A stretch of DNA of 64,000 bases, taken from the NCBI GenBank assembly GCA_029968055.1, contig JASCNX010000001.1, forward strand, positions 248,001 to 312,000, read 5' to 3'. Source of the stretch: Xenophilus aerolatus (GTDB lineage Bacteria > Pseudomonadota > Gammaproteobacteria > Burkholderiales > Burkholderiaceae_C). How positions within the stretch are numbered: position 1 is the first letter of the stretch; each line of letters begins with the position of its first letter. The position numbers and the translations under genes were made by a program. Under the pieces are notes generated by a model, which saw nothing but the letters and a program-made list of their open reading frames with translations, ran no database searches and had not been told where the DNA came from. This document shows, in pieces, positions 47,399 through 63,846 of the stretch.

Positions 47399-48074
47399 CG
47401 GCATCGTGGCGACACCGATCCGCGTCCTGCTGGGCGACGACCACCGCATCGTGCGCGAGGGCCTGCGCCAGATGCTGGGCGACCCGGCCAACGGCAGCCC
47501 GGAGATCGCAGTGGCGGCCGAAGCGGCGACCGGGCCCGAGGTCATCGAGCGGGTGACGCAGCTCGGCGGCACGCAGGGGGTCGACGTCGTGCTGCTGGAC
47601 ATCGCGCTGCCCGGCCGCGACGGGCTGGACGTGCTGCAGGACCTGCGGGCGGGCTGGCCCGGCCTGCCGGTGCTGATGCTGTCGACCTATCCCGAGCGGC
47701 AGTACGCCGTACGCTGCATCCGCCTGGGCGCGGCCGGCTACCTCAACAAGAGCGCCGACGCCGAGGAGATGGTGGCCGCGGTGCGCAAGGCGGCCGGCGG
47801 CGGCATCTACGTCACGCCGGCCACGGCCGAGGCGCTGGCCGGCGCGGTGGGCCGCAGCGGCTCGGCCACCGAGGCGCTGTCGCACCGCGAACACCAGGTG
47901 TTCCGCCTGCTCACGGCGGGGCACAGCGTGAGCGAGATTGGTGCAAGCCTCGGCCTGGCGCCCAACACCGTCAGCACCTACCGGGCGCGCATCCTCGAAA
48001 AGACGGGCACCAAGAACGACGTGGAGCTGGCGCTGTACGCCGAGCGGCAGGGCCGGCGCCCTCCGGCGGGCTGA
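47391..48074 (+). CDS. NarL/FixJ-type response regulator
   Basis: This 227-residue regulator has a receiver domain (residues about 10-130; acidic pocket GDDHR, phosphoacceptor D70 in VVLLDIALPG, a Lys in YLNKSAD) and a LuxR-type helix-turn-helix (about 160-222: LSHREHQVFRLLTAGHSVSEIGASLGLAPNTVSTYRARIL). It is the partner of the overlapping PAS kinase. The inverted repeat at 48097-48118, upstream of the cyanate transporter genes, is a candidate binding site. In E. coli the cyanate operon is controlled by the LysR-type CynR, so two-component control would be a different solution. Confidence 0.92.
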   Translation: MSSGIVATPIRVLLGDDHRIVREGLRQMLGDPANGSPEIAVAAEAATGPEVIERVTQLGGTQGVDVVLLDIALPGRDGLDVLQDLRAGWPGLPVLMLSTYPERQYAVRCIRLGAAGYLNKSADAEEMVAAVRKAAGGGIYVTPATAEALAGAVGRSGSATEALSHREHQVFRLLTAGHSVSEIGASLGLAPNTVSTYRARILEKTGTKNDVELALYAERQGRRPPAG

Positions 48075-48096
48075 TTCGGCCCGTCGCGAGGCCCCG

Positions 48097-48118
48097 CTTG
48101 TAGGGGCAGCACTACAAG
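48097..48118. promoter_or_regulatory. Inverted repeat upstream of cyanate operon
   Basis: CTTGTAG (48097-48103) and CTACAAG (48112-48118) form a perfect inverted repeat with an 8-base centre, 104 bases before the cynA-type start. Its core GTAGGG-N6-CTACA (48100-48116) recurs upstream of urtA at 57086-57102. A LuxR-type response regulator is the likely binder. Confidence 0.6.
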
Positions 48119-48133
48119 GCCTCGACGGGCGAG

Positions 48134-48149
48134 GCACGATTTTTCGTGC
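48134..48149. other. Hairpin before the cyanate operon
   Basis: GCACGATTTTTCGTGC is a perfect 6-base-pair inverted repeat with a TTTT loop between the response-regulator gene and the transporter genes. It may be a weak terminator for the two-component genes or part of the operon leader. Confidence 0.4.
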
Positions 48150-48221
48150 GGGCGTCGCTGTGGCGCCGAACGGGCCCGCACGTTGCATGGGACCAGGCAC
48201 TTCCACTGCACGAGGTGAACC

Positions 48222-49604
48222 ATGCCGCGACTGCCCACCACCCTCCGCGCCGACCCCTACGACGCCGACCGCCCGCTGCTGATGCGCTGTGCCTGCGGGC
48301 AGGACCATGCACCGCAGGCCCACGGCGCGGCGCAGGCGGTGGCCGCCGTGTCGGTGGAAGAGGCCTCGCGCGACTTCGTCGAGGCCGCGCTGGTCAAGGC
48401 GCTGTTCCCGCACGAGCCGCTGCGCCGGCGCTTCCTGCAGGCGGTGGGTGCGGGCACGGCACGCGCCGCCATCGCCTCGCTGCTGCCGGTCGCCTCGCTG
48501 CAGGCCATGGCGCAGGAGAAGAAGGCGCCGGAGAAGAAGGACCTGAAGATCGGCTTCATCCCGATCACCTGCGCCACGCCGCTGATCATGGCGCACCCGC
48601 TGGGCTTCTACCGCAACGAGGGCCTGAACGTGGACGTCGTCAAGACGGCCGGCTGGGCGCTGATCCGCGACAAGATGATGAACCGGGAGTACGACGCCAC
48701 GCACTTCCTCAGCCCCATGCCGCTGGCCATGTCGATGGGCGTGGGCTCCAACCCGGTGCCGATGAACGTGGCCACCATCCAGAACACCAACGGTCAGGCC
48801 ATCACGCTGTCGGTGAAGCACAAGGACAAGCGCGACCCGAAGCTGTGGAAGGGCTTCAAGTTCGCGGTGCCCTTCGAGTTCAGCATGCACAACTTCCTGC
48901 TGCGCTACTACGTGGCCGAACACGGGCTCAACCCCGACACCGACATCCAGATCCGCGTGGTGCCGCCGCCCGAGATGGTGGCCAACCTGCGCGCCGGGAA
49001 CATCGACGGCTACCTGGGCCCGGACCCCTTCAACCAGCGCGCGGTCTATGAAGAGGTGGGCTTCATCCACCTGCTGACCAAGGAGCTGTGGAACGGCCAC
49101 CCGTGCTGCGCCTTCGGCACCAGCACCGAGTTCATCCAGAAGAACCCCAACACCTTCGCGGCGCTGTACCGCGCGGTGCTCACCGCCTCAGCGATGGCGC
49201 GCGAGGCCAAGAACCGCGAGCTGATCGCCAAGGTCATCTCGCCGGCGCAGTACCTGAACCAGCCCGAGACCGTCATCGCCCAGGTGCTGACCGGCCGCTT
49301 CGCCGACGGCCTGGGCAAGATCCAGACCGTGCCGGACCGGGCCGACTTCGACCCCATCCCCTGGCAGAGCATGGCCGTGTGGATGCTCACGCAGATGCAG
49401 CGCTGGGGCTACGTCAAGGGCGAGGTCAACTACAAGCAGATCGCCGAGAAGGTGTTCCTGCTGACCGACGCCAAGAAGTACATGAAGGAGCTGGGCCAGC
49501 CGGTGCCGCAGGGCGCGTACCCCTCGTTCAAGGTCATGGGCAAGGAGTTCGATCCCGACAAGGCCGCGGCCTACGCCAAGAGCTTCGCGATCTACAAGGC
49601 ATGA
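48222..49604 (+). CDS. CmpA/NrtA-type ABC substrate-binding protein (probably cyanate)
   Basis: This 460-residue binding protein of the nitrate/nitrite/cyanate (CmpA/NrtA) family includes the block KIGFIPITCATPLIMAHPLGFY. Export looks Tat-dependent (RRRFLQAVGAG, residues 68-78), but the signal is preceded by an odd 67-residue N-terminal stretch with RCACGQDHA (C23, C25), a feature I recall in betaproteobacterial members of this family. Placement directly before permease, ATPase and cyanase genes points to cyanate as ligand, corresponding to CynA. The stop overlaps the permease ATG (ATGA, 49601-49604). The ribosome-binding sequence is GAGGTG. Confidence 0.87.
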   Translation: MPRLPTTLRADPYDADRPLLMRCACGQDHAPQAHGAAQAVAAVSVEEASRDFVEAALVKALFPHEPLRRRFLQAVGAGTARAAIASLLPVASLQAMAQEKKAPEKKDLKIGFIPITCATPLIMAHPLGFYRNEGLNVDVVKTAGWALIRDKMMNREYDATHFLSPMPLAMSMGVGSNPVPMNVATIQNTNGQAITLSVKHKDKRDPKLWKGFKFAVPFEFSMHNFLLRYYVAEHGLNPDTDIQIRVVPPPEMVANLRAGNIDGYLGPDPFNQRAVYEEVGFIHLLTKELWNGHPCCAFGTSTEFIQKNPNTFAALYRAVLTASAMAREAKNRELIAKVISPAQYLNQPETVIAQVLTGRFADGLGKIQTVPDRADFDPIPWQSMAVWMLTQMQRWGYVKGEVNYKQIAEKVFLLTDAKKYMKELGQPVPQGAYPSFKVMGKEFDPDKAAAYAKSFAIYKA

Positions 49605-50458
49605 AGTCGCTCAACGCCAAGGCGGCGCTGCTGTCGCTGCTGCTGCTGCTGGTGGTGCTGGGCATCTGGCACCTGGCCACCGCCACGGGCGCGGCCGGCG
49701 GCAGCGCCGCCGGCATGACGGCCGAGGAGGTCGAGTACGCCAAGATGATGGGCAAAGACCCCGGCGCGGCGAAGGCCGGGGGCTTTCCCACGCCGCTGGA
49801 GATGGGCCGCACGGCCTGGAAGCACCTGTCGCACCCGTTCTACGACAACGGGCCCAATGACAAGGGCATCGCGATCCAGCTGGGCCATTCGCTCGCGCGC
49901 GTCGGGCTGGGCTTCGGTCTCGCGTGCCTGGTGGCGATCCCGCTGGGCTTCCTGATCGGCATGTCGCCGCTGGCCTACCGGGCGCTCGACCCCTTCATCC
50001 AGGTGCTCAAGCCGATCAGCCCGCTGGCGTGGATGCCGCTGGCCCTCTACACCATCAAGGATTCGGGCATCAGCGGCATCTTCGTGATCTTCATCTGCTC
50101 GGTCTGGCCGATGCTGGTCAACACGGCCTTCGGCGTCGCCTCGGTGCGGCGCGACTGGCTCAACGTGGCACGCACGCTGGAGGTCAGCCCCTTGCGCAAG
50201 GCCTTCCGGGTGATCCTGCCGGCGGCCGCGCCGACCATCCTCACGGGCATGCGCATCAGCATGGGCATCGCATGGCTGGTGATCGTCGCGGCCGAGATGC
50301 TGGTCGGCGGCACGGGCATCGGCTACTTCGTCTGGAACGAGTGGAACAACCTGTCGCTGACCAACGTGATCTTCGCCATCCTGCTGATCGGCGTGGTCGG
50401 CATGCTGCTGGACCTGGCGTTCGGCCGCCTGCAGAAGGCCGTGACCTATGTGGAGTGA
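49601..50458 (+). CDS. ABC transporter permease (cyanate/nitrate type)
   Basis: This 285-residue inner-membrane permease has about six hydrophobic segments and the EAA-type coupling loop around LNVARTLEVSPLRKAFRVILPAAAPTILTGMR (near residues 190-220). It begins with a signal-anchor-like helix and a periplasmic segment (TAEEVEYAKMMGKDP) as in NrtB/CynB-type permeases. It is translationally coupled to the binding protein upstream and closely followed by the ATPase gene. It should import cyanate or a similar small anion. Confidence 0.9.
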   Translation: MKSLNAKAALLSLLLLLVVLGIWHLATATGAAGGSAAGMTAEEVEYAKMMGKDPGAAKAGGFPTPLEMGRTAWKHLSHPFYDNGPNDKGIAIQLGHSLARVGLGFGLACLVAIPLGFLIGMSPLAYRALDPFIQVLKPISPLAWMPLALYTIKDSGISGIFVIFICSVWPMLVNTAFGVASVRRDWLNVARTLEVSPLRKAFRVILPAAAPTILTGMRISMGIAWLVIVAAEMLVGGTGIGYFVWNEWNNLSLTNVIFAILLIGVVGMLLDLAFGRLQKAVTYVE

Positions 50459-50486
50459 CCATGGCCACGCAGCGCCCGAGGCAACG

Positions 50487-51326
50487 ATGACGGCCACCAC
50501 GACGGCACCGACGACAGCAACGAACCCATCGCCGGAATTCCTTCGCGTCCAGGGCCTGGCGCGGTCCTTCCAGGCGCAGCGCCCGGTGTTCGCCGAGGTC
50601 GACTTCGACGTCTCGCGCGGCGAGTTCGTCTGCATCATCGGCCACTCCGGCTGCGGCAAGACGACCATCCTCAACGTGCTGGCCGGCCTCGACCGTGCCA
50701 GCGCCGGCCATGTGTTCATGGACGGGCGCGAGGTGGCCGGCCCCAGCCTGGAGCGGGGCGTGGTGTTCCAAAGCCACGCGCTGCTGCCCTGGCTCACCGT
50801 GCGCCGCAACATCGCCTTCGCCGTCGAATCGCGCCGGCCCGACTGGCGCCGCGCCGAGGTGGACGCGCATGTCGAGAAGTACGTGGCGATGGTCGGCCTG
50901 TCCGCGGCGCTGGACAAGAAGCCGTCCGAGCTCTCGGGCGGCATGAAGCAGCGCGTGGGCATCGCGCGGGCCTTCGCCATCGAACCGAAGATGCTGCTGC
51001 TCGACGAGCCCTTCGGTGCGCTGGACGCGCTCACCCGCGGCACCATCCAGGACGAACTGGTGGCCATCGTGCGGCGCACGCAGCAGACCGTCTTCATGAT
51101 CACGCACGACGTGGACGAGGCCATCCTCCTGGCCGACCGCGTGCTGATGATGCGCAACGGCGTGGTGCTGCCCGACGGCGGCTGGCGGCCCGGCGGCATC
51201 GCCGAGACGCTTCGCATCGAGCTGCCGCGCGAACGCACGCGCGGCACGCTGCACCACATGCCCGGCTACTACGAGCTGCGCAACCACATCGTCGACTTCC
51301 TCGTCACCCGGGCGCACGCCGCCTGA
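50487..51326 (+). CDS. ABC transporter ATP-binding protein (cyanate/nitrate type)
   Basis: This 279-residue ATPase has Walker A GHSGCGKTT, Q-loop FQSHALLPWL, signature LSGGMKQRVGIARAF, Walker B MLLLDEPFGALD and the switch His in MITHDVDEA. It resembles NrtD/CynD-type proteins, single-domain and without the binding-protein fusion of NrtC. The start is uncertain: ATG at 50487 (GAGG 5 bases before) is used here, while an ATG at 50448 overlaps the permease by 11 bases and would add 13 residues. It energises the cyanate-type uptake system. Confidence 0.9.
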   Translation: MTATTTAPTTATNPSPEFLRVQGLARSFQAQRPVFAEVDFDVSRGEFVCIIGHSGCGKTTILNVLAGLDRASAGHVFMDGREVAGPSLERGVVFQSHALLPWLTVRRNIAFAVESRRPDWRRAEVDAHVEKYVAMVGLSAALDKKPSELSGGMKQRVGIARAFAIEPKMLLLDEPFGALDALTRGTIQDELVAIVRRTQQTVFMITHDVDEAILLADRVLMMRNGVVLPDGGWRPGGIAETLRIELPRERTRGTLHHMPGYYELRNHIVDFLVTRAHAA

Positions 51327-51365
51327 GGTCTTCCGTTTCCCCCAACACATCAAGGAGTGATATCC

Positions 51366-51809
51366 ATGAACCGCAACGACGTGACAGAAAAGATCATCGG
51401 CACCAAGGTGGCCAAGGGCATCCAGTGGGCCGACGTGGCCACGAAGGTCGGCCTGTCCAAGGAGTGGGTCACCGCGGCCTGCCTGGGCCAGATGACGCTC
51501 GACGCCGAGCAGGCCCAGGTGGTCGGCGAGATCTTCGGCCTCGACGCCGAGGAGCAGAAATGGCTGCAGGTGGTGCCGTACAAGGGCTCGCTGCCCACGG
51601 CCGTGCCCACCGACCCGCTGATCTACCGCTGGTACGAGATCGTCAGCGTCTACGGCACCACGATCAAGGAACTGATCCACGAGGAGTTCGGCGACGGGAT
51701 CATGAGCGCCATCGACTTCAAGATGGACATCGTGCGCGAGCCCGACCCCAAGGGCGACCGCGTGAACGTGGTGCTGTCGGGCAAGTTCCTGCCCTACAAG
51801 ACCTACTGA
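51366..51809 (+). CDS. cynS: Cyanate hydratase (cyanase)
   Basis: This 147-residue cyanase converts cyanate and bicarbonate to ammonia and carbon dioxide. All three catalytic residues are present at a constant offset of 8 from E. coli CynS numbering: R88 and E91 in IYRWYEIV and S114 in GDGIMSAIDF. The N-terminal helical domain (NRNDVTEKIIGTKVAKGIQW) forms the decamer interface. It starts after AAGGAG and 39 bases from the ATPase stop, so it is the last gene of the transporter operon. Together these genes let the cell use cyanate as a nitrogen source and detoxify it. Confidence 0.97.
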   Translation: MNRNDVTEKIIGTKVAKGIQWADVATKVGLSKEWVTAACLGQMTLDAEQAQVVGEIFGLDAEEQKWLQVVPYKGSLPTAVPTDPLIYRWYEIVSVYGTTIKELIHEEFGDGIMSAIDFKMDIVREPDPKGDRVNVVLSGKFLPYKTY

Positions 51810-51855: not shown

Positions 51856-52596
51856 TCAGGCCGTGGCGGCGGGCGCGACGGAGGCGCCTTCGATGCGGTG
51901 CCGCGCCAGCGCGTCGGCCACGAGGCCGCTGGCCTTCATGTCCTCGACGAAGGCCGCCAGGAAGGCCGCCGCTTCGGCACCGCGGCCCGCCGGCAGGCCC
52001 ATCGCCTGCTGGATCACCATGAAGTGGCCGGGCAGCATGCGCAGCGACGCATCGTCGCGCGCCCAGCCTTCGAGCAGCTGGCGGATGCCCGCCGCCACCT
52101 CGACGCCGCCGGCCTTCACCGCTTCGCGGACGGCACCGGCGTTGGGCAGGCGCTCGATGGTGGCGGCCTTCAACTCGCGCGCGAGGAAGAGGTCGTAGGC
52201 GCTGCCCGCACCGACGCCCACGCGCGTGCCGGCGCGGTCGACCTCGGCGTTGTCCTGCAACGCCGAGGCGGCCGGCACGAGGTAGCTGCCTTCGATGAGC
52301 ACGTAGGGCGCGGTGAAGCGCAGGCCTTCGCTGCGCGCCGGGTCGATGGCGAAGAAGCCGACGTCGGCCTGCTCGCCGCGCACCGCCTCGACCGACTGCG
52401 CGGCCTTGTCGAACACCACCAGCTCGACCGGCACGCCCAGGCGTGCGCCGAGCGCACGGGCCAGGTCGACGGAGACGCCGGCCGCTTCGCCGGTGGCGTC
52501 GCGCCCGGCCAGGATGGGATTGCCGAGGTTGATGGAGGCGCGCAGCATGCCGGTCGGCGCGAATGCCTGGAGGAGGGCAGGGGACGGTGCGGTCAT
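51856..52596 (-). CDS. Solute-binding family 3 protein lacking a signal peptide
   Basis: This 246-residue protein has the polar-amino-acid-binding (SBP family 3) fold: GMLRASINLGNPILAGRD, GVSVDLARALGARLGVPVELV, ADVGFFAIDPARSEGLRFTAPYV and GVGAGSAYDLFLARE. No export signal precedes the fold, since the N-terminus is MTAPSPALLQAFAPTG, so it may stay in the cytoplasm. It lies 80 bases downstream of the LuxR-type response regulator on the same strand, and no permease or ATPase gene accompanies it. A ligand-sensing accessory to the two-component system is conceivable. It could also be an exported protein with a mis-set start, but no better upstream start is visible. Confidence 0.8.
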   Translation of the reverse strand: MTAPSPALLQAFAPTGMLRASINLGNPILAGRDATGEAAGVSVDLARALGARLGVPVELVVFDKAAQSVEAVRGEQADVGFFAIDPARSEGLRFTAPYVLIEGSYLVPAASALQDNAEVDRAGTRVGVGAGSAYDLFLARELKAATIERLPNAGAVREAVKAGGVEVAAGIRQLLEGWARDDASLRMLPGHFMVIQQAMGLPAGRGAEAAAFLAAFVEDMKASGLVADALARHRIEGASVAPAATA

Positions 52597-52676: not shown

Positions 52677-53573
52677 TCAGTCGAGGTGGCCACTGGCCAG
52701 TGCCGCGGCCGCGGCACGCGTCTCCACACCCAGCTTCTCGAAGATGTGCTCAAGGTGCTTGTTCACCGTGCGCGGGCTCATGCCCAGGATCTCGGCGATG
52801 TCGCGGTTGGTCTTGCCCTTGGCCAGCCAGGACAGCACCTCGGTCTCGCGCGGCGTGAGCGCCGCTTCGCCCAGGCGAGAGGCGCCGCTGGGCCCGCGGT
52901 CCTGGGCCAGCAGGAGCATGGTCTCGCCCAGGGTCGCGGTGCCGAGGTTGCGGGCCGACAGGCGCTGGCCCGTGGCGGTGGTCAGCCGCTCGGTTCCGCC
53001 CTGCAGCACCGGCGCGAGGGCGGGCGGCAGGTGGCCGGGCAGCGCGGCCTGCGGCAGGCCCTGCAGCCAGGCGGCGGCCTGCGGCGACAGCCAGGCGATG
53101 CGGCCCTGCGCATCGACGAAGACCACGCCCATGCCCGCCACGTCGACCGCGTCGCGCGCCATGCGGGTGATTCGCGCGTTGCGCGTGTGGGTGTGCAGGC
53201 GGGCCAGCACCTCCTGCGCACGGATGGGCTTGACCACGTAGTCCACGCCGCCCGACTCGAAGCCTTCCACCACGTGCGGCGTTTCGGACAGGCCGGTCAT
53301 GAACAGCACTGGGATGTGGGCCAGCGCTGCATTGGCCTTGATGCGCCGGCAGGTGTCGAAGCCCGAGAGGCCGGGCAGCATGCCGTCGAGCAGGATGGCA
53401 TCGGGCACGACCAGTTCCAGCCGCTCCAGCGCGCTCTCGCCGTCGCCGGCCACCAGCACCGTGTAGCCGCTGGATTCGAGCGTGTCGCACAGCATGCCCA
53501 GGCTGCTGGGCGCATCGTCCACCACGAGGACGACCGGGCGTTCGGCGTCAGAGGTCGAGGGCGACAGCGTCAT
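52677..53573 (-). CDS. Response regulator, REC-PAS-like-LuxR
   Basis: This 298-residue regulator has a receiver (residues about 14-130; VVDD pocket, phosphoacceptor D63 in AILLDGMLPG, conserved Lys in VVKPIRA). The middle segment (about 135-215, GMGVVFVDAQGRIAWLSPQA) looks like a PAS domain, and the C-terminus is a LuxR-type helix-turn-helix (LTPRETEVLSWLAKGKTNRDIAEILGMSPRTVNKHL). It overlaps the kinase gene upstream by 26 bases, so it is surely its partner. The PAS-like insert suggests a second input. It probably controls the divergent urt-fmd operon. Confidence 0.9.
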   Translation of the reverse strand: MTLSPSTSDAERPVVLVVDDAPSSLGMLCDTLESSGYTVLVAGDGESALERLELVVPDAILLDGMLPGLSGFDTCRRIKANAALAHIPVLFMTGLSETPHVVEGFESGGVDYVVKPIRAQEVLARLHTHTRNARITRMARDAVDVAGMGVVFVDAQGRIAWLSPQAAAWLQGLPQAALPGHLPPALAPVLQGGTERLTTATGQRLSARNLGTATLGETMLLLAQDRGPSGASRLGEAALTPRETEVLSWLAKGKTNRDIAEILGMSPRTVNKHLEHIFEKLGVETRAAAAALASGHLD

Positions 53574-56500
53574 CGGCGATCACTTTCCTGAGTTGGTCGA
53601 GTTCGAAGCGCGACACCAGGCCGCGCAGTTGCGTGCAGGCCGCGGCCAGGTCGGGCCGCTCGGCCGCGATGCGGTCCAGCGCCTGCTGCAGCCCGCGCAC
53701 GTGGCCGATCTGCGCCAGGTGCAGCAGCTCGGCGCGGGCGTCTTCGGGCAGCGCGATGGTGCCAGGCGTCGGCGGCGCGTCCATGCGCACTGCGGGCGCC
53801 GGCGTGTGCACCAGCCATTCGAGGCCCAGGTGCCGCTCGAGCGCGGCGATGAGTTCGGACTCGATCACCGGCTTGCCCACGAAGCCCTGGCAGCCGGCCT
53901 CGCGCAGCCGGTCGGCCTGGTTCTCGAACACGTTGGCCGAGACGATGATGATCGGCACTTGGTCGAAGCCCGCGGCGCGCACGTGGCGGGCCGTGTCCCA
54001 GCCGTCCATGTCGTCCATGCTCAGGTCCAGCAGGATGGCCGAGGGCTGGTGGTCGCGCAGGCTGTCCAGGCACTCGGTGCCGCTGGCAGCCTCGCGCACG
54101 TCGAAGCCCAGGGGCATGAGCAGGCCGGCCAGCATCTGGCGCTGCACCGGCTGGTCGTCCACCACCAGCAGCGTGCGGCGCGGGCCGAAGTAGCCCGAGA
54201 TCGGCCGCTGCGGCTCGGCCTGCGGGCCGGGGTCGGCCACCTCGCGCAGGTAGATGCGCACGCTGAAGGTGCTGCCCCGGCTGGAGCTGTCGGCCAGCGC
54301 CAGCTCGCCGCCCATCAGCGAGGTGAGCAGGCCGGTGATCGTCAGGCCCAGGCCGGTGCCCGGCTCGCCCGCGCGCCGGCCGACGCTGCCGCGCTCGAAG
54401 GGCAGGAAGATGCGCTGGCGGTCCTGCGGCGCGACGCCAGGGCCGGTGTCGATGACGTCGAAGCGCAGCACCTCGCGCCGCGCGTCCACCTGCAGCGTGA
54501 CGGTGCCGGCCTCGGTGAAGCGCACCGCGTTGGCCAGCAGGTTGATGAGGATCTGCCGCAGGCGCTTGGCGTCGGCCTGCACCCAGTCCGGCAGCCGGCC
54601 CAGGTGGGTGTAGACGAAGGCCAGGCCCTTGTTCTCGGCCTGCGGCCGCACCATGCGCACCAGCTCGTCGAGGAAGGCCGGCAGCGCCAGCGGCGCCGGC
54701 TCCAGCTGCAGGCGGCCGGCCTCGATGCGCGCCAGGTCGAGCAGCCCGTCGATCAGGCCCAGCATGTGCTCGCCGCTGCGGTGGATGGTCTGCACCGCGC
54801 CGTGCACCGAGGCCGGCGTGGCGGCGGCCGGCTCCGACTTGAGCAGGATCTGCGAGTAGCCCAGGATGCTGTTGAGCGGCGTGCGCAGCTCGTGCGTCAT
54901 GCCGGCCACGTAGCGCGTCTTGGCCTGGTTGGCTGCCTCGGCCGCCTCCTTGGCGGCCTGCAGCGCGGCGTCGGTGCGCTGGTGGGCCTCGATCTCCACC
55001 GTCAGCAGGTGGTTGTGGCGGTTGGATTCCTCCTGCGCCATGTGGCGGCTCTCGCTGCCCAGCACCACCCACCAGGCCGCCACCGCCGCCACCAGCGACA
55101 GCAGCGCGAAGACCTTGAGGAAGGGCGTGCGCAGCGCCTCGTGCGGCATGCCGCCGGTGCCGATCAGCTCCTGCGCGTAGACGATGCCCATGATGGTGGC
55201 CAGCAGCGCGACCAGCGAGAAGGCCACCACCAGGTAGTGGGCCACGCGGAAGTTCAGGCGCGCCGACAGCCGGGCCGGCAGCAGCGCCTGCAGCCAGCCG
55301 CTGATCTGCTCGGCGGCGCGCGAGTCGGTCTTGCAGCGGTCGTGGCAGCGCGACTCCAGCGTGCAGCACAGCGAGCAGATCGGCGCGCTGTAGGCCGGGC
55401 AGAAGGCCATGTCCTCGGACTCGAAGCGGTTGTCGCACACATGGCAGGTCACGCTCTGGCCGGGGGTCCAGTGCTGCAGGTCCTGCCGCGCCAGGTAGTA
55501 GCGCCCGCGCGTGCGCCAGGCCAGCAGCGGCGAGACCACCAGCGCGGTGGCCAGCGCGATGAAGGGCGAGAAGGCGGCGGCCCATTGCCCCAGAACCCCC
55601 GCATAGGCCACCATCGCCAGTCCGGCCGCCACCAACGTGGCCACCAGGCCGACCGGGTTGATGTCGTACAGGTGCGCCCGCTTGAACTCGATCACCTTCG
55701 GGCTGAAGCCCAGCGGCTTGTTGATGACCAGGTCGGCCACCAGCGCGCCGACCCAGGCGATGGCGATGTTGCTGTACAGCCCCAGCACCTTCTCCAGCGC
55801 GCCGAAGACGCCCAGCGTCATCAGCAGCACGGCGATCAGCACGTTGAAGACCAGCCACACCACGCGCCCCGGGTGGCTGTGCGTCAGGCGGGCGAAGAAG
55901 TTGGACCAGGCCAGCGAGCCCGCGTAGGCGTTGGTCAGGTTGATCTTCATCTGCGATACGACCACGAAGAGCGTCGTCACCGCCATGACCGTGGCCGGGT
56001 CCTGCAGCACGTAGGCGAAGCCGGCCAGGTACATGCGGGTGGGCTCCACCGCGTGCTCGGCCGGGATCTCGTGCTGCAGCGCGAGGAAGGCCAGGAAGGC
56101 GCCGCCCAGCATCTTGAGCATGCCCGGCACGATCCAGCCCGGCCCGGCGATGAGCACCGCGGCCCACCAGCGGCCGCGGTTGGCGGCCGTCTTCTCGGGC
56201 AGGAAGCGCAGGTAGTCGACCTGCTCGCCGATCTGCACCACCAGCGCGAAGGCCACGGTGGCGCCGGCGCCGAACATCAGCGGGTCGAAGCCGCTGCTGC
56301 CCGACACGCGCCCCACGAGGCTGGTGAAGTCGGCGTACAGCTGCGGGTTCTTCGCCAGCACCGCGAGGAAGGGCAGGAAGAACAGCACGATCCAGATCGG
56401 CTGGCTCCACAGCTGCAGCCCCGAGATCAGCGTGATGCCGCGCATCACCAGCGGGATGATGACGAGCGAGGAGGCCAGGTACAGCACCGGCAGCGGCCAG

Positions 56501-56943
56501 TTCAGGTACATCTGCAGCGCCAGCGCGAGGATGGCCGCCTCCAGCGCGAAGAAGATGAAGGTGAAGCTCGCGTAAATCAACGAGGTGATGGTCGAGCCCA
56601 GGTAGCCGAAGCCGGCGCCGCGGGTGAGCAGGTCCATGTCGACGCCGTGCCGCGCCGCGTAGTACGAGATCGGCAGGCCGGTGAGGAAGGTGATCAGGCC
56701 CACGACCAGGATGGCCCACACCGCGTTCGAGAAGCCGTACGACAGCGCGATGGCGCCGCCGATCGCCTCAAGCGCCAGGAAGGAGGTGGCGCCGAAGGCG
56801 GCGTTGGCCACGCGGAACTCCGACCACTTGCGAAAGCTGCGCGGCGTGTAGCGCAGGGCGTAGTCCTCCAGCGTCTCGTTCGCGACCCAGGTGTTGTAGT
56901 CGCGCCGGATGCGAAAGATCTTCTGGCCGGAGAGGGGTTGCAT
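53548..56943 (-). CDS. NCS1 transporter-hybrid histidine kinase fusion
   Basis: This 1131-residue protein joins a transporter to a sensor kinase. Residues 1-475 form a full NCS1 (cytosine/purine permease-like) membrane domain. Residues 500-537 hold eight cysteines (C500, C503, C515, C523, C526, C527, C533, C537), a likely metal-binding module. Two more membrane helices (about 568-590, 608-628) and a coiled coil lead to HisKA (H684 in GMTHELRTPL), HATPase (ILINLLANAVRFT, GTGLGLTIT) and a receiver (D973 in ILLDLSMDD). The C-terminal 80 residues are helical. The ATG at 56943 begins the NCS1 domain. It is divergent from urtA, which suggests that it senses urea, an amide or a nucleobase. Confidence 0.92.
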   Translation of the reverse strand: MQPLSGQKIFRIRRDYNTWVANETLEDYALRYTPRSFRKWSEFRVANAAFGATSFLALEAIGGAIALSYGFSNAVWAILVVGLITFLTGLPISYYAARHGVDMDLLTRGAGFGYLGSTITSLIYASFTFIFFALEAAILALALQMYLNWPLPVLYLASSLVIIPLVMRGITLISGLQLWSQPIWIVLFFLPFLAVLAKNPQLYADFTSLVGRVSGSSGFDPLMFGAGATVAFALVVQIGEQVDYLRFLPEKTAANRGRWWAAVLIAGPGWIVPGMLKMLGGAFLAFLALQHEIPAEHAVEPTRMYLAGFAYVLQDPATVMAVTTLFVVVSQMKINLTNAYAGSLAWSNFFARLTHSHPGRVVWLVFNVLIAVLLMTLGVFGALEKVLGLYSNIAIAWVGALVADLVINKPLGFSPKVIEFKRAHLYDINPVGLVATLVAAGLAMVAYAGVLGQWAAAFSPFIALATALVVSPLLAWRTRGRYYLARQDLQHWTPGQSVTCHVCDNRFESEDMAFCPAYSAPICSLCCTLESRCHDRCKTDSRAAEQISGWLQALLPARLSARLNFRVAHYLVVAFSLVALLATIMGIVYAQELIGTGGMPHEALRTPFLKVFALLSLVAAVAAWWVVLGSESRHMAQEESNRHNHLLTVEIEAHQRTDAALQAAKEAAEAANQAKTRYVAGMTHELRTPLNSILGYSQILLKSEPAAATPASVHGAVQTIHRSGEHMLGLIDGLLDLARIEAGRLQLEPAPLALPAFLDELVRMVRPQAENKGLAFVYTHLGRLPDWVQADAKRLRQILINLLANAVRFTEAGTVTLQVDARREVLRFDVIDTGPGVAPQDRQRIFLPFERGSVGRRAGEPGTGLGLTITGLLTSLMGGELALADSSSRGSTFSVRIYLREVADPGPQAEPQRPISGYFGPRRTLLVVDDQPVQRQMLAGLLMPLGFDVREAASGTECLDSLRDHQPSAILLDLSMDDMDGWDTARHVRAAGFDQVPIIIVSANVFENQADRLREAGCQGFVGKPVIESELIAALERHLGLEWLVHTPAPAVRMDAPPTPGTIALPEDARAELLHLAQIGHVRGLQQALDRIAAERPDLAAACTQLRGLVSRFELDQLRKVIADDAVALDL

Positions 56944-57059
56944 CGAAGGGTCTCGCGAAAGCGGGGCAGGCGAGCCGTCTTGCAAGAAGCGATCCGCGGG
57001 GCGGGCGCAGACACCGCAGCACGCCCGCGCAGTCTGCCGCCGCGGCCGGCGCATGCCGC

Positions 57060-57075
57060 TACGTTGAATGACGTA
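57060..57075. promoter_or_regulatory. Palindrome TACGT-N6-ACGTA
   Basis: TACGT (57060-57064) and ACGTA (57071-57075) form a palindrome in the region between the kinase fusion and urtA, 26 bases from the GTAGGG motif start. It may be a second regulator half of the shared control region. Confidence 0.45.
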
Positions 57076-57085
57076 TTCGCCGTGC

Positions 57086-57187: not shown

Positions 57188-58450
57188 ATGTCCCGACCCC
57201 AAGATCCTTCCGACGTCCTCGCCCTGCGCCGCCGCCGGCTGCTGCAGGGCGCGGCGGCCCTGCCCGTGATGGGCCTGGGCGGCCTCGCCTTCGGCCAGAC
57301 GCCGCCGACCGCCAAGGTCAACACCACCAAGCTGGCGGTGACCGACACGGAAGTGACGGTGGGCCAGCTGCATTCGTCCTCGGGCACCATGGCCATCTCG
57401 GAGACCGGCTCGATCCAGGCCGAGCAGCTCGCGATCGACCAGATCAACGCCATGGGCGGCATCCTGGGCCGAAAGATCAAGGTCATCAAGGAGGACGGCG
57501 CCTCCGACTGGCCCACCTTCGCCGAGAAGAGCAAGAAGCTGCTGGTCAACGACAAGGTGGCCTGCGTCTTCGGCTGCTGGACCAGCGCCTCGCGCAAGGC
57601 GGTGCTGCCGGTCTTCGAGAAGGAGAACGGCCTGCTGTACTACCCCACCTTCTACGAGGGCCTGGAGCAGAGCAAGAACGTGATCTACACGGGCCAGGAG
57701 GCCACGCAGCAGATCATCTACGGCCTGGACTGGGGCGCGAAGGAGAAGAAGGCGAAGACCTTCTTCCTGGTGGGCTCCGACTACATCTGGCCGCGCACCT
57801 CGATGAAGATCGCGCGCAAGCACATCGAGACGGTGGGCAAGCTCGGCAGCGTGAAGGGCGAGGAGTACTACCCGCTGGGCCACACCAACTTCAATTCGCT
57901 GATCAACAAGATCAAGGTCGCCAAGCCCGACTGCATCTTCGCGGCGGTGGTGGGCGGCTCCAACGTGGCCTTCTACAAGCAGCTCAAGGCCGCCGGCATC
58001 ACCGGCGACAAGCAGTTCCTGCTGACGCTGTCGGTCACCGAGGACGAGATGACCGGCGTGGGCGGCGAGAACTTCGCCGGCTTCTACTCGTCGATGAAGT
58101 ACTTCCAGACGCTGCAGAACGACAACAACAAGAAGTTCGTCGAGGCCTTCAAGGCCAAGTACGGCAAGGACGCCGTGATCGGCGACGTGACGCAGGCCGG
58201 CTACCTGGGCCCCTGGCTGTGGAAGGCCGCGGTGGAGAAGGCCGGCAGCTTCGACGTCGACAAGGTGGTGGCCGCCTCGCCCGGCATCGAACTGAAGACC
58301 GCGCCCGAGGGCTACGTGAAGCTGGACGCCAACCACCACCTGTGGAGCAAGTCGCGCATCGCGCAGGGCCAGCCCGACGGCACCTTCAAGGTGGTGGCCG
58401 AGTCGCCGGACCTGATCAAGCCCGATCCGTTCCCCAAGGGTTATCAGTAA
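57188..58450 (+). CDS. urtA: Urea/short-chain amide ABC substrate-binding protein
   Basis: This 420-residue periplasmic binding protein has a Tat signal (RRRRLLQGAAALPVMG, residues 14-29) and the UrtA signature VGQLHSSSGTMAISETGSIQAE, with AIDQINAMGGILGRKIKV. The family binds urea; the homologous FmdD of methylotrophs serves formamide and other short amides. With fmdA and fmdB downstream, amides are as likely as urea here. It is the first gene of a seven-gene operon and is divergent from the transporter-kinase fusion. A hairpin-rich gap of 171 bases separates it from urtB. Confidence 0.93.
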   Translation: MSRPQDPSDVLALRRRRLLQGAAALPVMGLGGLAFGQTPPTAKVNTTKLAVTDTEVTVGQLHSSSGTMAISETGSIQAEQLAIDQINAMGGILGRKIKVIKEDGASDWPTFAEKSKKLLVNDKVACVFGCWTSASRKAVLPVFEKENGLLYYPTFYEGLEQSKNVIYTGQEATQQIIYGLDWGAKEKKAKTFFLVGSDYIWPRTSMKIARKHIETVGKLGSVKGEEYYPLGHTNFNSLINKIKVAKPDCIFAAVVGGSNVAFYKQLKAAGITGDKQFLLTLSVTEDEMTGVGGENFAGFYSSMKYFQTLQNDNNKKFVEAFKAKYGKDAVIGDVTQAGYLGPWLWKAAVEKAGSFDVDKVVAASPGIELKTAPEGYVKLDANHHLWSKSRIAQGQPDGTFKVVAESPDLIKPDPFPKGYQ

Positions 58451-58621: not shown

Positions 58622-59536
58622 ATGACCCTCTCCGACATGCTCAACATCGGCCTCATGCAGGGCTTCGCGGGGCTTTCGCTCTTCGCGGTGCTGCTGCTGA
58701 TGGGCCTGGGCCTGGCGATCATCTTCGGCCAGATGGGCGTCATCAACATGGCGCATGGCGAGTTCATGGCCATCGGGGCGTACACCGTGTACATGTCGGC
58801 CCTGTTCACCGAGCGCACGGCGCCGGGGGCCATGGCGTACTACTTTCCCGTTGCCATCGTGCTGGGCTTCGGCGTGGCCTTCGCGCTGGGCTGGCTCATG
58901 GAATGGGCGCTGATCCGCCACCTGTACAGCCGGCCGCTCGACACGCTGCTGGCCACCTGGGGCGTGAGCCTGGGGCTGCAGCAGTGCTTCCGCACCTTCA
59001 TCAATCCCAAGGAAGTGAGCCCGACGCTGCCCGAGTGGCTGATGGGCTCGTGGACGCCCATGGAGGGCGTCGACATCCCGATCAACGGCCTGTTCGTGCT
59101 CGGCCTCACGGCCGTGGTGACCGTCGGCGTGCTGATCGCCCTGCACAAGAGCCGCTGGGGCCTGCGGGTGCGCGCCACCGTGGCCAACCGCACCATGGCC
59201 AACGCCACCGGCATCGACACCAGGAAGACCGACCGCCTGACCTTCGCCATGGGCTGCGGCATCGCCGGCGTGGCGGGCGCGGCCTTCACCACCATCGGCT
59301 CCACCGGGCCGACCTCGGGGCAGCTGTACATCGTCGATTCCTTCCTGGTCGTCACCTTCGGCGGCGCCGCCAGCCTGCTGGGCACCGTGGTCTCGGCCTT
59401 CGGCATCGCCCAGACGCAGTCGATCTCGGAATTCTTCATGACCGGCTCGATGGCCAAGGTGCTGACGCTCTCGCTGATCGTGCTGATCCTGATGATGCGG
59501 CCGCAAGGCCTGTTCGCCTCCAAGGTCCGCCGCTGA
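58622..59536 (+). CDS. urtB: Urea ABC transporter permease UrtB
   Basis: This 304-residue LivH-type permease has many membrane segments and the block IFGQMGVINMAHGEFMAIGAYT, characteristic of UrtB. Conserved HKSRWGLRVRATVANRTMANATGIDTRK follows, and near the end SFLVVTFGGAASLLGTVVSAFG. It pairs with UrtC to form the membrane channel of the urea/amide importer. The gap to urtC is 25 bases. It is the short form, without the extra periplasmic domain seen in some UrtB proteins. Confidence 0.94.
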   Translation: MTLSDMLNIGLMQGFAGLSLFAVLLLMGLGLAIIFGQMGVINMAHGEFMAIGAYTVYMSALFTERTAPGAMAYYFPVAIVLGFGVAFALGWLMEWALIRHLYSRPLDTLLATWGVSLGLQQCFRTFINPKEVSPTLPEWLMGSWTPMEGVDIPINGLFVLGLTAVVTVGVLIALHKSRWGLRVRATVANRTMANATGIDTRKTDRLTFAMGCGIAGVAGAAFTTIGSTGPTSGQLYIVDSFLVVTFGGAASLLGTVVSAFGIAQTQSISEFFMTGSMAKVLTLSLIVLILMMRPQGLFASKVRR

Positions 59537-59561: not shown

Positions 59562-60767
59562 ATGGACTCCCTCAAGGCCCTGATCAAGCGCTACCAGCTC
59601 GGCAGTCTGCTGCTGCTCACCCTGCTGCTCGCGGTGGTGCTGCCGCTCACGCTGGACATCTTCCGCCTCAACCTGGTGGGCAAGTACCTGTGCTACGCCT
59701 TCGTCGCCGTCGGGCTGGTGATGGTGTGGGGCTACGGCGGCGTGCTGAGCCTGGGGCAGGGCGTGTTCTTCGGCCTGGGCGGCTACGCGATGGCGATGTT
59801 CCTCAAGCTCGAGGCCTCCGACCCCGAGAGCACCAAGATCCAGTCCACGCCGGGCATCCCCGACTTCATGGACTGGAACCAGATCACCTCGCTGCCGGCC
59901 TTCTGGGTGCCTTTCAAGAGCCTGCCGCTGGCGCTGCTGGCGGTGGTGCTGGTGCCGATGGCGCTGGCCTGGCTGATCAGCTTCGCGATGTTCAAGCGGC
60001 GCGTGGGCGGTGTGTACTTCGCCATCATCACGCAGGCGGTGGCGCTGATCTGCACCGTGCTCATCATCGGCCAGCAGGGCTACACCGGCGGCGTCAACGG
60101 CATGACCGACCTGAAGACGCTGCTGGGTTGGGACACGCGCACGGACAGCGCCAAGTACATCCTCTACTTCGTCTGCGTGGCGCTGCTGATCGGCTCGATC
60201 GTGCTGTGCCGCTGGATCCAGACCAGCAAGCTGGGCACGCTGCTGCTGGCCATGCGCGACAAGGAGGACCGCGTGCGCTTCTCGGGCTACGACGTGTCGA
60301 ACTTCAAGGTCTTCACCTTCTGCCTGGCGGCCGGCCTGTCGGGCATCGGCGGCGCGATGTTCGCGCTGCAGGTGGGCTTCATGTCGCCCAGTTTCGTGGG
60401 CATCGTGCCCTCGATCGAGATGGTCATCTTCGCCGCCGTGGGCGGGCGCATGAGCCTGGTGGGCGCGGTGTACGGCACGCTGCTGGTCAACGCCGGCAAG
60501 ACGCTGTTCTCGGAGAGCTTTCCGGACCTGTGGCTCTTCCTCATGGCGGGCCTCTTCATCGGCGTGACCATGGCCTTCCCCATGGGCCTGGCCGGCCTGT
60601 GGGACGAGAAGATCAGGCCCTGGTGGAAGCGCAGCCGCATGGAACGCCAGGCCGATGCCGCGCGTGTGGCCGCTGCCCATGCCGCCTACCCCGAAGCGCT
60701 GCCGCCGCGCGAGGGCAAGAAGTCCCCATCCGAGCTGCCCGAAGGCATGAGCGGGCAGGGCGCCTGA
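59562..60767 (+). CDS. urtC: Urea ABC transporter permease UrtC
   Basis: This 401-residue LivM-type permease is UrtC of the urea/amide importer. Signatures include WGYGGVLSLGQGVFFGLGGYAMAM, GGVYFAIITQAVALICTVLIIGQQGYTGG and the coupling region DKEDRVRFSGYDVSNFKVFTF. The C-terminal 50 residues are charged and cytoplasmic. It is followed by the urtD ATPase gene after 13 bases. Length and motifs are typical. Confidence 0.94.
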   Translation: MDSLKALIKRYQLGSLLLLTLLLAVVLPLTLDIFRLNLVGKYLCYAFVAVGLVMVWGYGGVLSLGQGVFFGLGGYAMAMFLKLEASDPESTKIQSTPGIPDFMDWNQITSLPAFWVPFKSLPLALLAVVLVPMALAWLISFAMFKRRVGGVYFAIITQAVALICTVLIIGQQGYTGGVNGMTDLKTLLGWDTRTDSAKYILYFVCVALLIGSIVLCRWIQTSKLGTLLLAMRDKEDRVRFSGYDVSNFKVFTFCLAAGLSGIGGAMFALQVGFMSPSFVGIVPSIEMVIFAAVGGRMSLVGAVYGTLLVNAGKTLFSESFPDLWLFLMAGLFIGVTMAFPMGLAGLWDEKIRPWWKRSRMERQADAARVAAAHAAYPEALPPREGKKSPSELPEGMSGQGA

Positions 60768-60780
60768 GGAGACCACACCC

Positions 60781-61524
<744 letters not shown>

Positions 61525-61525
61525 C

Positions 61526-62227
61526 ATGAGCAACGTGATGTTGAAGGTCGAGGACCTGCATGTCGCCTACGGCCAGAGCGAGGCGCTGCACGGCGTGTCC
61601 TTCGAGGGCATGGCCAACGAGACGGTGGCCATCATGGGCCGCAACGGCATGGGCAAGACCACGCTGTTCAAGTCGCTGATGGGCGTGCTGCCGGTCAAGA
61701 GCGGCCGCATCGAGGTGGCGGGCCAGGACGTGACGAAGGACGAGAGCTTCCGCCGCGTGGCCAAGGGCATCGCCTACGTGCCGCAGGGCCGCATGATCTT
61801 CCCGACGCTGACGGTGGAGGAGAACATCCAGACCGGCCTGGAGAACAGGAGGACCCGCCGCATCCCGGAGGAGATCTACGCGCTCTTCCCGGTGCTCTTC
61901 GACATGAAGCGGCGCAAGGGCGGCAACCTCTCGGGCGGGCAGCAGCAGCAGCTGGCCATCGCGCGCGCCCTGGTCACCGAGCCCAAGGTGCTGCTGCTGG
62001 ACGAGCCGACCGAGGGCATCCAGCCTTCGATCATCAAGGACATCGCGCGCGCCCTCAACGAGATCCGCCGGATGAAGGGCATCACGATCGTGGTGTCGGA
62101 GCAGGTGCTCTCCTTCGCCATGGACGTGGCCGACCGCCTCTTCGTCATCGAGGGCGGCCGCCTCGTGCACGAGACCGCCCGCGACAAGACCGACGAGGCC
62201 CGCATCAAGGCCTACCTCTCGGTCTGA
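61526..62227 (+). CDS. urtE: Urea ABC transporter ATP-binding protein UrtE
   Basis: This 233-residue LivF-type ATPase has Walker A GRNGMGKTT, signature NLSGGQQQQLAIARALV, Walker B VLLLDEPTEGIQPS and the UrtE-like YVPQGRMIFPTLTVEENIQTG. It is the second nucleotide-binding subunit of the importer. A 46-base gap with GGAG precedes the formamidase gene, so the operon continues into fmdA. Confidence 0.94.
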   Translation: MSNVMLKVEDLHVAYGQSEALHGVSFEGMANETVAIMGRNGMGKTTLFKSLMGVLPVKSGRIEVAGQDVTKDESFRRVAKGIAYVPQGRMIFPTLTVEENIQTGLENRRTRRIPEEIYALFPVLFDMKRRKGGNLSGGQQQQLAIARALVTEPKVLLLDEPTEGIQPSIIKDIARALNEIRRMKGITIVVSEQVLSFAMDVADRLFVIEGGRLVHETARDKTDEARIKAYLSV

Positions 62228-62273: not shown

Positions 62274-63503
62274 ATGCCCGACACCCTGATCAAGGTCGAC
62301 CTTTCGCAGCCTGCGCCCAGCAACGAGATGGTGCACAACCGCTGGCACCCGGACATCCCGATGGCCTGCTGGGTGAACCCGGGCGACGACTTCAAGCTGG
62401 AGACCTACGACTGGACCGGCGGCTTCATCAAGAACAACGACAGCGCCGACGACGTGCGCGACATCGACCTGACGACGGTGCATTACCTGAGCGGCCCGGT
62501 GGGCGTGAAGGGTGCCCAGCCCGGCGACCTGCTGGTGGTCGACCTGCTGGACATCGGTGCCAAGGACGACAGCCTCTGGGGCTTCAACGGCTTCTTCAGC
62601 AAGAAGAACGGCGGCGGCTTCCTGACGGAGCATTTCCCGCTGGCGCAGAAGTCCATCTGGGACTTCCACGGCATGTTCACCACCTCGCGCCACGTGCCGG
62701 GCGTGAAGTACGCGGGCCTGATCCACCCGGGCCTGATCGGCTGCCTGCCCGACCCCAAGATGCTGGAGGTGTGGAACACGCGCGAGCAGGCGCTGATCGA
62801 TTCCGACCCGGCCACCAGCGGCCTGGCCAACCCGCCCTTCGCCGGCACCGCGCACATGGGCAAGCTCACCGGCGAGGCCAAGGCCAAGGCAGCGGCCACC
62901 GGCGCGCGCACCGTGCCCCCGCGCGAGCACGGCGGCAACTGCGACATCAAGGACCTCTCGCGCGGCTCGAAGATCTTCTTCCCGGTCTACGTCGAGGGCG
63001 CCGGCCTGTCGGTGGGCGACCTGCACTTCAGCCAGGGCGATGGCGAGATCACCTTCTGCGGCGCCATCGAGATGGCCGGCTGGGTGCACATGAAGGTGTC
63101 GATCATCAAGGGCGGCATGGCCAAGTACGGCATCAAGAACCCGATCTTCAAGCCCAGCCCGATCAAGCCCGTCTACGACGACTACGTGATCTTCGAGGGC
63201 ATCAGCGTCGACGAGAGCGGCAAGCAGTACTACCTCGACGTGAACGTCGCCTACCGCCAGGCCTGCCTCAACGCCATCGAGTACCTGAAGAAGTTCGGCT
63301 ACTCGGGCGCGCAGGCCTACTCGATCCTCGGCACGGCGCCCGTGCAGGGCCACATCAGCGGCGTGGTCGACGTGCCCAACGCCTGCGCCACGCTGTGGCT
63401 GCCGACGCAGATCTTCGACTTCGACATCAACCCGAGCGCCGCCGGGCCGACGAAGTTCCTGGACGGCAGCATCGACATGCCGCTCTCTCAGGATCTGCTC
63501 TGA
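62274..63503 (+). CDS. fmdA: Formamidase
   Basis: This 409-residue acetamidase/formamidase-family enzyme hydrolyses formamide to formate and ammonia. The sequence agrees with FmdA from the N-terminus (TLIKVDLSQPAPSNEMVHNRWHPDIPMACW) on; PPREHGGNCDIKDLSRGSKIFFPVYV and FSQGDGEITFCGAIEMAGWV are the conserved core with metal-binding candidates. The length is that of characterised formamidases. Lying directly behind urtABCDE, it suggests that the importer's real cargo is formamide or related amides, with ammonia as nitrogen source. The ribosome-binding sequence is AGGAG. Confidence 0.95.
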   Translation: MPDTLIKVDLSQPAPSNEMVHNRWHPDIPMACWVNPGDDFKLETYDWTGGFIKNNDSADDVRDIDLTTVHYLSGPVGVKGAQPGDLLVVDLLDIGAKDDSLWGFNGFFSKKNGGGFLTEHFPLAQKSIWDFHGMFTTSRHVPGVKYAGLIHPGLIGCLPDPKMLEVWNTREQALIDSDPATSGLANPPFAGTAHMGKLTGEAKAKAAATGARTVPPREHGGNCDIKDLSRGSKIFFPVYVEGAGLSVGDLHFSQGDGEITFCGAIEMAGWVHMKVSIIKGGMAKYGIKNPIFKPSPIKPVYDDYVIFEGISVDESGKQYYLDVNVAYRQACLNAIEYLKKFGYSGAQAYSILGTAPVQGHISGVVDVPNACATLWLPTQIFDFDINPSAAGPTKFLDGSIDMPLSQDLL

Positions 63504-63504
63504 C

Positions 63505-63846
63505 ATGCCGGCCTACGAGTACGAATGCGCCGGCTGCGGGGGCTTCGATGCCTTCCGCAGCATGAGCCAGCGCAACGAGCCCGCGGCCTGCCCGGTGTGC
63601 GCCACGCCCTCGCCGCGGGTGCTGGCGAGCGCGCCCCGGCTGGCGCTGCTCGACGGCGGCACGCGGCGCGCGATGGACGTCAACGAACGCGCGCGGCACG
63701 AGCCGAAGAGCTCGCGCGACTACCAGCGGCTGCGCCACCCGGCCGGCTGCGGCTGCTGCAGCCCGGGCCGCAGCAAGGCGACGGTGACCGCGCCCAACGG
63801 CGCCAAGGCTTTCCCTTCGAAGCGGCCCTGGATGATCAGTCACTGA
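63505..63846 (+). CDS. fmdB: FmdB-family zinc-ribbon protein
   Basis: This 113-residue protein of the FmdB regulatory family has an N-terminal zinc ribbon: YEYECAGCGGFDAF, then AACPVCATPSPRVL, two CxxC pairs. A basic tail contains GCGCCSPGR, near residue 85. FmdB was named for a proposed regulatory role in the formamidase/acetamidase operon of Methylophilus, but its mechanism is unknown. It starts 1 base after the fmdA stop and its own stop overlaps the convergent gene's end by 11 bases. Confidence 0.9.
   Translation: MPAYEYECAGCGGFDAFRSMSQRNEPAACPVCATPSPRVLASAPRLALLDGGTRRAMDVNERARHEPKSSRDYQRLRHPAGCGCCSPGRSKATVTAPNGAKAFPSKRPWMISH

Follow-up and report, generated by a model that had tools for sequence, protein, structure and literature searches.

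A 64,000-nucleotide stretch of the Xenophilus aerolatus genome (the window) carries the gene for a 1131-residue hybrid histidine kinase whose sensor domain has the fold of the NCS1 transporters. We consider it likely that this transporter-like sensor kinase, a partner regulator and a shared palindromic site (CTACGTTGAATGACGTAT in the window) control genes for the uptake and breakdown of urea and small amides, in an arrangement that recurs across many proteobacteria. Sequence gives strong support for the family, for its sensor domain of NCS1 fold, for the conservation of both partner and palindrome, and for the adjoining genes. From these we infer which ligand is bound, which way control runs, what the internal receiver does and which metal a cysteine-rich module carries.

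The original prediction, made from the letters of the window, described a single chain with HisKA, HATPase and receiver domains, an overlapping LuxR-type regulator and a urea/amide operon on the opposite side. The open reading frame and Pfam agree with this. The regulator and kinase genes share 26 bp, and urtABCDE-fmdA-fmdB is transcribed opposite to the kinase gene. The protein has HisKA, HATPase_c and receiver domains with both phospho-accepting residues, as expected of a hybrid kinase; H684 and D973 are unvarying in every family row with a letter at these positions and in 87/87 sequences of another alignment. Hydropathy and a predicted model end the transporter helices at about residue 478 and place two further helices, also anticipated earlier, at about 565–595 and 601–659, the second membrane-like as far as about residue 632. 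No PAS or other sensor domain was detected by Pfam between this hairpin and HisKA. The nearest named relatives are contigs of Xenophilus aerolatus and Variovorax. Among 141 family rows, with identity down to about 43%, E59, E135, Q237, E240, D243, R246, Q331, K333, N335, N338 and all eight cysteines of the module are unvarying (141/141). The C-terminal tail (residues about 1040–1131, window 53548–53826, minus strand) has an invariant Gly1080 and no Pfam match; it may form a helical domain, HPt-like or otherwise.

Searched directly, residues 1–485 match no Pfam model, PF02133 included, at E ≤ 10; the NCS1 assignment is therefore based on profile comparisons, on the fold and on an intermediate homologue. 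Nor do the Pfam listings (E ≤ 5) for 40 homologues trimmed to residues 1–660 include PF02133. With hhalign the membrane domain gives 97–98% for NCS1 and 8.7% for SSF, with AA_permease_2 also low, and both Foldseek and VIA-align find the CodB/Mhp1 fold over the transporter core. Three programs bore out the prediction that residues 1–480 align with NCS1 transporters along their helices. The intermediate homologue (L202) matches the membrane domain (1.3e-39) and itself passes PF02133; it scores under NCBIfam's own NCS1 cut-off (59.4 vs 353.1 bits). Judged from these comparisons, the membrane domain is an NCS1-fold protein of a divergent branch outside the Pfam model and not a filed PF02133 member. 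An SLC5 (SSF) identity is not supported, given the low hhalign value and the lack of a Pfam SSF match.

The fold is shared with Mhp1 and CodB (2jln, 4d1a, 2x79, 7qoa) over about 400 residues, at 15–19% identity in the fold alignments. Unlike those proteins, the present one is fused to a kinase. E135 is aligned to Q121 of Mhp1, and F131 to W117, a position that stays aromatic. The hydroxyl pair S312/T313, which we take to be that of the Mhp1 sodium-2 site, is aligned to K333/I334, or to I334/N335 in a CodB-led register; the pair is missing from the kinase in either register. To our knowledge, this pair is not universal among NCS1 proteins. The three stand-alone relatives inspected (L202–L204) keep E135 and have Arg in place of K333.

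The cysteines lie at residues 500, 503, 515, 523, 526, 527, 533 and 537, eight within 38 residues as noted originally; only three others occur in the protein (958, 1018 and 1103). The cluster is not a matter of chance, since all eight are identical throughout the family rows. A DNA-level scan for the cysteine core hits 56 places in 50 of 396 genomes, and because all 56 fall inside kinase places (by-eye comparison), the exact core is seen only in this kinase family within that sample. The kinase places of G391 and G261 have no exact match. The module shows faint similarity to Prok-RING_1 (12/40 members, best E 0.014) and to FYVE-type folds, among other folds, and is a putative metal site that probably holds two zinc ions. 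The metal or redox sensing suggested for it originally is a putative role. NCS1 transporters have twelve helices. As these would precede residues 479–560, that segment, with the cysteine module, is predicted to be cytoplasmic, and the hairpin would bring the kinase back to the cytoplasm.

An even sample of 398 genomes was surveyed across the phylum, and kinase-family matches were counted from rows. Matches occur in 58 genomes; after removal of six that hold only weak stand-alone transporters or a fragment (G212, G227, G231, G273, G335, G421), 52 genomes with 58 kinase places (one partial) remain. Besides the window and the region of a paralogue, 51 of these loci were examined (L211–L261), with five not included. 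BLAST finds Urt, Ure or Fmd genes near the kinase in 50/51, the exception (L251) having just 360 bp of upstream DNA; 39/51 have no ure gene. The layout varies: urt-ure genes lie upstream on the same strand, not divergently, in L220, L221 and L241, and two short kinases (L217 and L218; 889 and 883 aa), which lack a good upstream palindrome, are followed by fmdA-fmdB in the same orientation. A LuxR-type regulator follows the kinase within 900 bp in 135/142 loci. Annotated plasmid regions cover nine of the 20 listed matches, plus one unannotated record. The divergent urt-fmd layout is shared by plasmids of Burkholderia, Chelatococcus, Paraburkholderia, Azospirillum and Methylobacterium; elsewhere the neighbours are fmdA-fmdB alone (Methylovirgula), urease (Mitsuaria) or urt alone (Roseomonas).

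The window's genome encodes a second NCS1-kinase with a LuxR-type regulator (L164 9839–13570, G000:C3), which faces ureC, ureE and ureG. Nine urease-labelled rows cluster on the family tree (2 changes vs 8.7 in shuffles). The stand-alone relative L202 (9449–14484) is an NCS1 permease whose neighbours are a C-N hydrolase, an AmiC-like binding protein and AmiR; it is possibly an amide permease of the NCS1 family. Read from the adjoining genes, urea and small amides are the theme common to the kinase loci. The nitrogen-compound link proposed originally is supported by the 50 loci, the shared palindrome and the paralogue beside urease.

Applied to 90 non-redundant kinase-upstream regions of 300 bp, an expectation-maximization (EM) search gave the motif ATACGTCAATTGACGTAT (about 24 bits), with a log-likelihood of 888 vs 34 in base-shuffled sequences. 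A matrix built from 89 regions scores at least 12 in 76 of them and in 118/142 regions (in-sample). The 64-kb window has a single site, with a score of 25.6 (next best 3.4) and its centre about 124 bp from the start codon of the kinase gene and 120 bp from that of urtA (57188), and 449,657 bases of loci without this kinase have no site at 12 or above. When the matrix was trained on 44 regions of L001–L080, 20 column-permuted controls each scored 0/45 at this threshold in the 45 others. In L049 the site lies slightly farther away from the kinase. GC-rich variant palindromes (TACGCCA-like) stand before or near urtA in urease-linked settings (L215 18533, L095 20097, L211 15573, L278 8329). They may be the site of the paralogous regulator, and the second pair may prefer a different site.

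The nearest identified divergent start at the 142 kinase-upstream sites is urtA in 128, ureA in 2, amiE in 1 and fmdA in 1, with none in 10. The same loci hold 41 further sites, of which 34 sit 34–150 bp before fmdA (26), urtA (5) or amiE (3); seven are unassigned. A degenerate pattern, VTACGYNNNNNNRCGTAB, occurs at three places in the 5.1-Mb genome of the window (reversed control, 27): at the window site itself, 59 bp ahead of the gene for an aliphatic amidase (L277 4196–4213, ATG 4273; NCBIfam 712.6 bits, cut-off 427) and 71 bp before a second urtA (L278 8329–8346, ATG 8418; TIGR03407, 601.9 bits vs 492.75). The pattern was written with knowledge of the first two, so the second urtA is the independent match. 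The paralogous kinase of the same genome (L164) has no such site. From 4196 to 7730 of L277 (G000:C1:315595 on), the amidase gene is followed by open reading frames that resemble, by sequence judgement, a MoxR-type AAA ATPase and a VWA-type protein.

These features would fit the following scheme. Urea or a small amide, for example formamide, would bind in the NCS1-type pocket. The rocking motion of the fold would pass through the cytoplasmic, probably two-zinc, cysteine module to the hairpin of transmembrane helices 13 and 14 and on to the dimerization and histidine phosphotransfer helix. His684 would be autophosphorylated and the phosphate passed to the adjoining LuxR-type regulator, with Asp973 of the built-in receiver acting as a relay or a brake. 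The regulator would then bind ATACGTCAATTGACGTAT-like palindromes and activate urt, fmdA, amiE and probably its own gene. We extend this only tentatively, to a picture that we hold to be possible rather than likely: the membrane domain would be a dedicated urea/amide receptor without sodium coupling, in which K333 stands where the sodium ion would be, so that ligand binding alone drives the rocking motion. The cysteine module would then be a new class of adaptor, a counterpart of STAC, that couples this motion to the kinase, and the two paralogous pairs of a cell would divide amide/urea uptake and urease control between them.

Fusions of transporters and kinases are already known for SLC5 (CbrA, CrbS, RpuS) and Amt (Ks-Amt5, PMC5764959). 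CbrA, CrbS and RpuS likewise join a complete transporter domain to a histidine kinase, which supports the original comparison with CbrA; CrbS and RpuS are also hybrids and work through LuxR-type partners on nutrient genes; CrbR requires an inverted repeat, a likeness to the palindrome here (PMC13022988, PMC7096432, PMC5715377, PMC9100948). The CrbR motif, for example TACTACCATCGTCGAAT (PMC5715377), differs from our site. Their transporter class is SLC5 whereas ours is NCS1, an eight-cysteine module and a transmembrane hairpin take the place of their STAC and PAS, and the neighbours here are urea/amide genes. The linker has no STAC-type Pfam match, the cysteine module occupying that place; STAC itself was not directly compared. 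For CbrA, sodium-site residues are reported to be unconserved and uptake to be proton-driven (PMC7096432). Ks-Amt5, an ammonium sensor kinase, also uses a nitrogen transporter domain as a kinase receptor (PMC5764959). Its domain is of the Amt class and comes from an anammox bacterium, whereas the NCS1-type one is found in 52/398 sampled genomes. One paper mentions another urtABCDE operon, a second one, together with a two-component regulator of the LuxR family, and labels a hybrid histidine kinase in a figure legend (PMC13296017). AmiC and AmiR are the controllers of amidase groups. These groups and fmd-urt clusters hold the same kind of target enzymes and transporters, but control here would run through a membrane kinase and a LuxR-type regulator.

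Several observations weigh against the scheme. The strongest caution comes from the closest studied analogue, CbrA, whose transporter domain is reported to be non-essential for signal perception (PMC9100948). The identity of the ligand is read from neighbouring genes, some Urt calls are at 37–42% identity and could be other binding proteins (L236 has one UrtA-like match only, at 37%), and the Tistrella locus (L098) has the kinase-regulator pair and a palindrome with no urea genes near. The model of the NCS1 domain has a pLDDT of 77.5, with residues 1–37 unreliable. The hold-out matrix recovers 12/45 regions at 12 or above (14 at 8 or above), and its misses include sites with TACGC/GCGTA arms (Methylobacterium, Methylovirgula) and the urease group; just 2/9 urease-labelled upstream regions reach 12. 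No site was found upstream of the kinase in L164, L095, L211, L216, L055, L217–L221, L241, L252 and L254. When up to 3 mismatches are allowed, the strict consensus matches one place in the window's genome, and so does its reversed control. The extra fmdA sites are not independent, because 21/26 come from named Pseudomonas/Stutzerimonas loci.

The behaviour of CbrA suggests another reading, in which the NCS1 domain serves chiefly as an anchor, or as a transporter in its own right, and a cytoplasmic or periplasmic cue is read through the cysteine module, the hairpin or ligand-loaded UrtA. CbrA transport is reported to proceed without the kinase (PMC7096432), and the cysteine module varies no more than the transporter residues do. 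Nevertheless, we think this unlikely: Pfam gives no other sensor domain between the hairpin and HisKA, the charged residues within the membrane part are fully invariant, and the aligned sodium-site positions are unlike those of Mhp1 and CodB. The module could itself act as the primary sensor, responding to zinc, nickel or the redox state, and so link urea/amide use to metal supply. Urease requires nickel, one branch of the family is tied to urease, and the eight invariant cysteines with their faint zinc-fold similarities point the same way; we still regard this as decidedly improbable.

A general sensor of nitrogen limitation, with urea/amide genes as one target set among others, would suit targets that scavenge nitrogen, and urea systems are commonly regulated by nitrogen. 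The target set appears narrow, however, because there are just three degenerate matches genome-wide, all before urea/amide genes, which leaves such a sensor improbable. The original prediction took the sensor to be a nucleobase-type permease. Its NCS1 part stands; the fold would also allow the ligand to be a nucleobase, hydantoin, allantoin or a related cyclic ureide, compounds of the kind that other NCS1 proteins transport. To this we give very little credence: the annotated plasmid regions name urea/amide genes and no nucleobase, purine, pyrimidine or hydantoin gene (not every locus was searched for these), the palindromes precede urea and amide genes, and the nearest stand-alone relative found (L202) belongs to an amidase group.

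The kinase as receptor for urea or small amides is our preferred reading, and its features are collected in Table 1. For urtA, we judge from a twin-arginine-like signal sequence that the start at 57188 is more likely than the first ATG of the frame (57068). A family-3 solute-binding-like protein (51856–52596, minus strand) is encoded directly downstream of the LuxR regulator, with a relative in 10/90 loci. Farther away (47226–51809) are a NarL-like regulator, judged from its sequence, then a nitrate/cyanate-type ABC transporter and the cyanase gene cynS, which is near the kinase in 3/90 loci.

Table 1. Features of the kinase locus, in window positions.
Feature	Position	Strand	Basis
Response regulator, receiver and LuxR-type HTH (GerE), presumed partner	52677..53573	minus	26-bp overlap with kinase gene
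Hybrid histidine kinase, NCS1-fold N-terminal domain, 1131 aa	53548..56943	minus (ATG at 56943)	Open reading frame
Receiver (Response_reg), residues 926-1035, Asp973	53839..54168	minus	Pfam and alignment
HATPase_c, residues 791-899	54247..54573	minus	Pfam
HisKA, residues 674-743, phospho-acceptor His684	54715..54924	minus	Pfam and alignment
Transmembrane hairpin, residues ~565-632, runs into signalling helix	55048..55251	minus	Hydropathy and predicted model
Eight-cysteine module, residues 500-537	55333..55446	minus	Cys positions, alignment, DNA pattern scan
NCS1-fold membrane domain, residues ~20-480	55504..56886	minus	hhalign, Foldseek, VIA-align
Palindrome, presumed operator	57059..57076	none	Motif search, matrix scoring
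urtA, urea ABC transporter binding protein	57188..58450	plus	NCBIfam 522.9 bits, cut-off 492.75
urtB	58622..59536	plus	NCBIfam, above cut-off
urtC	59562..60767	plus	NCBIfam, above cut-off
urtD	60781..61524	plus	NCBIfam, above cut-off
urtE	61526..62227	plus	NCBIfam, above cut-off
fmdA, formamidase	62274..63503	plus	NCBIfam 745 bits, cut-off 500
fmdB-type zinc-ribbon (RPWMISH) protein	63505..63846	plus	NCBIfam, above cut-off

Urea and formamide are often available as nitrogen sources in the environment. In our searches of open-access PMC, we found no description of their sensing at the membrane in these bacteria, nor of an NCS1-kinase sensor, its cysteine module or its palindrome. NCS1 would be an additional transporter class among the few known transporter-kinase sensors, and the system comes with a predicted ligand class, a partner, a DNA site and a target set of three promoters in one genome. 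The invariant charged residue near the ion site would offer a clean way into the question of how a transporter becomes a receptor.
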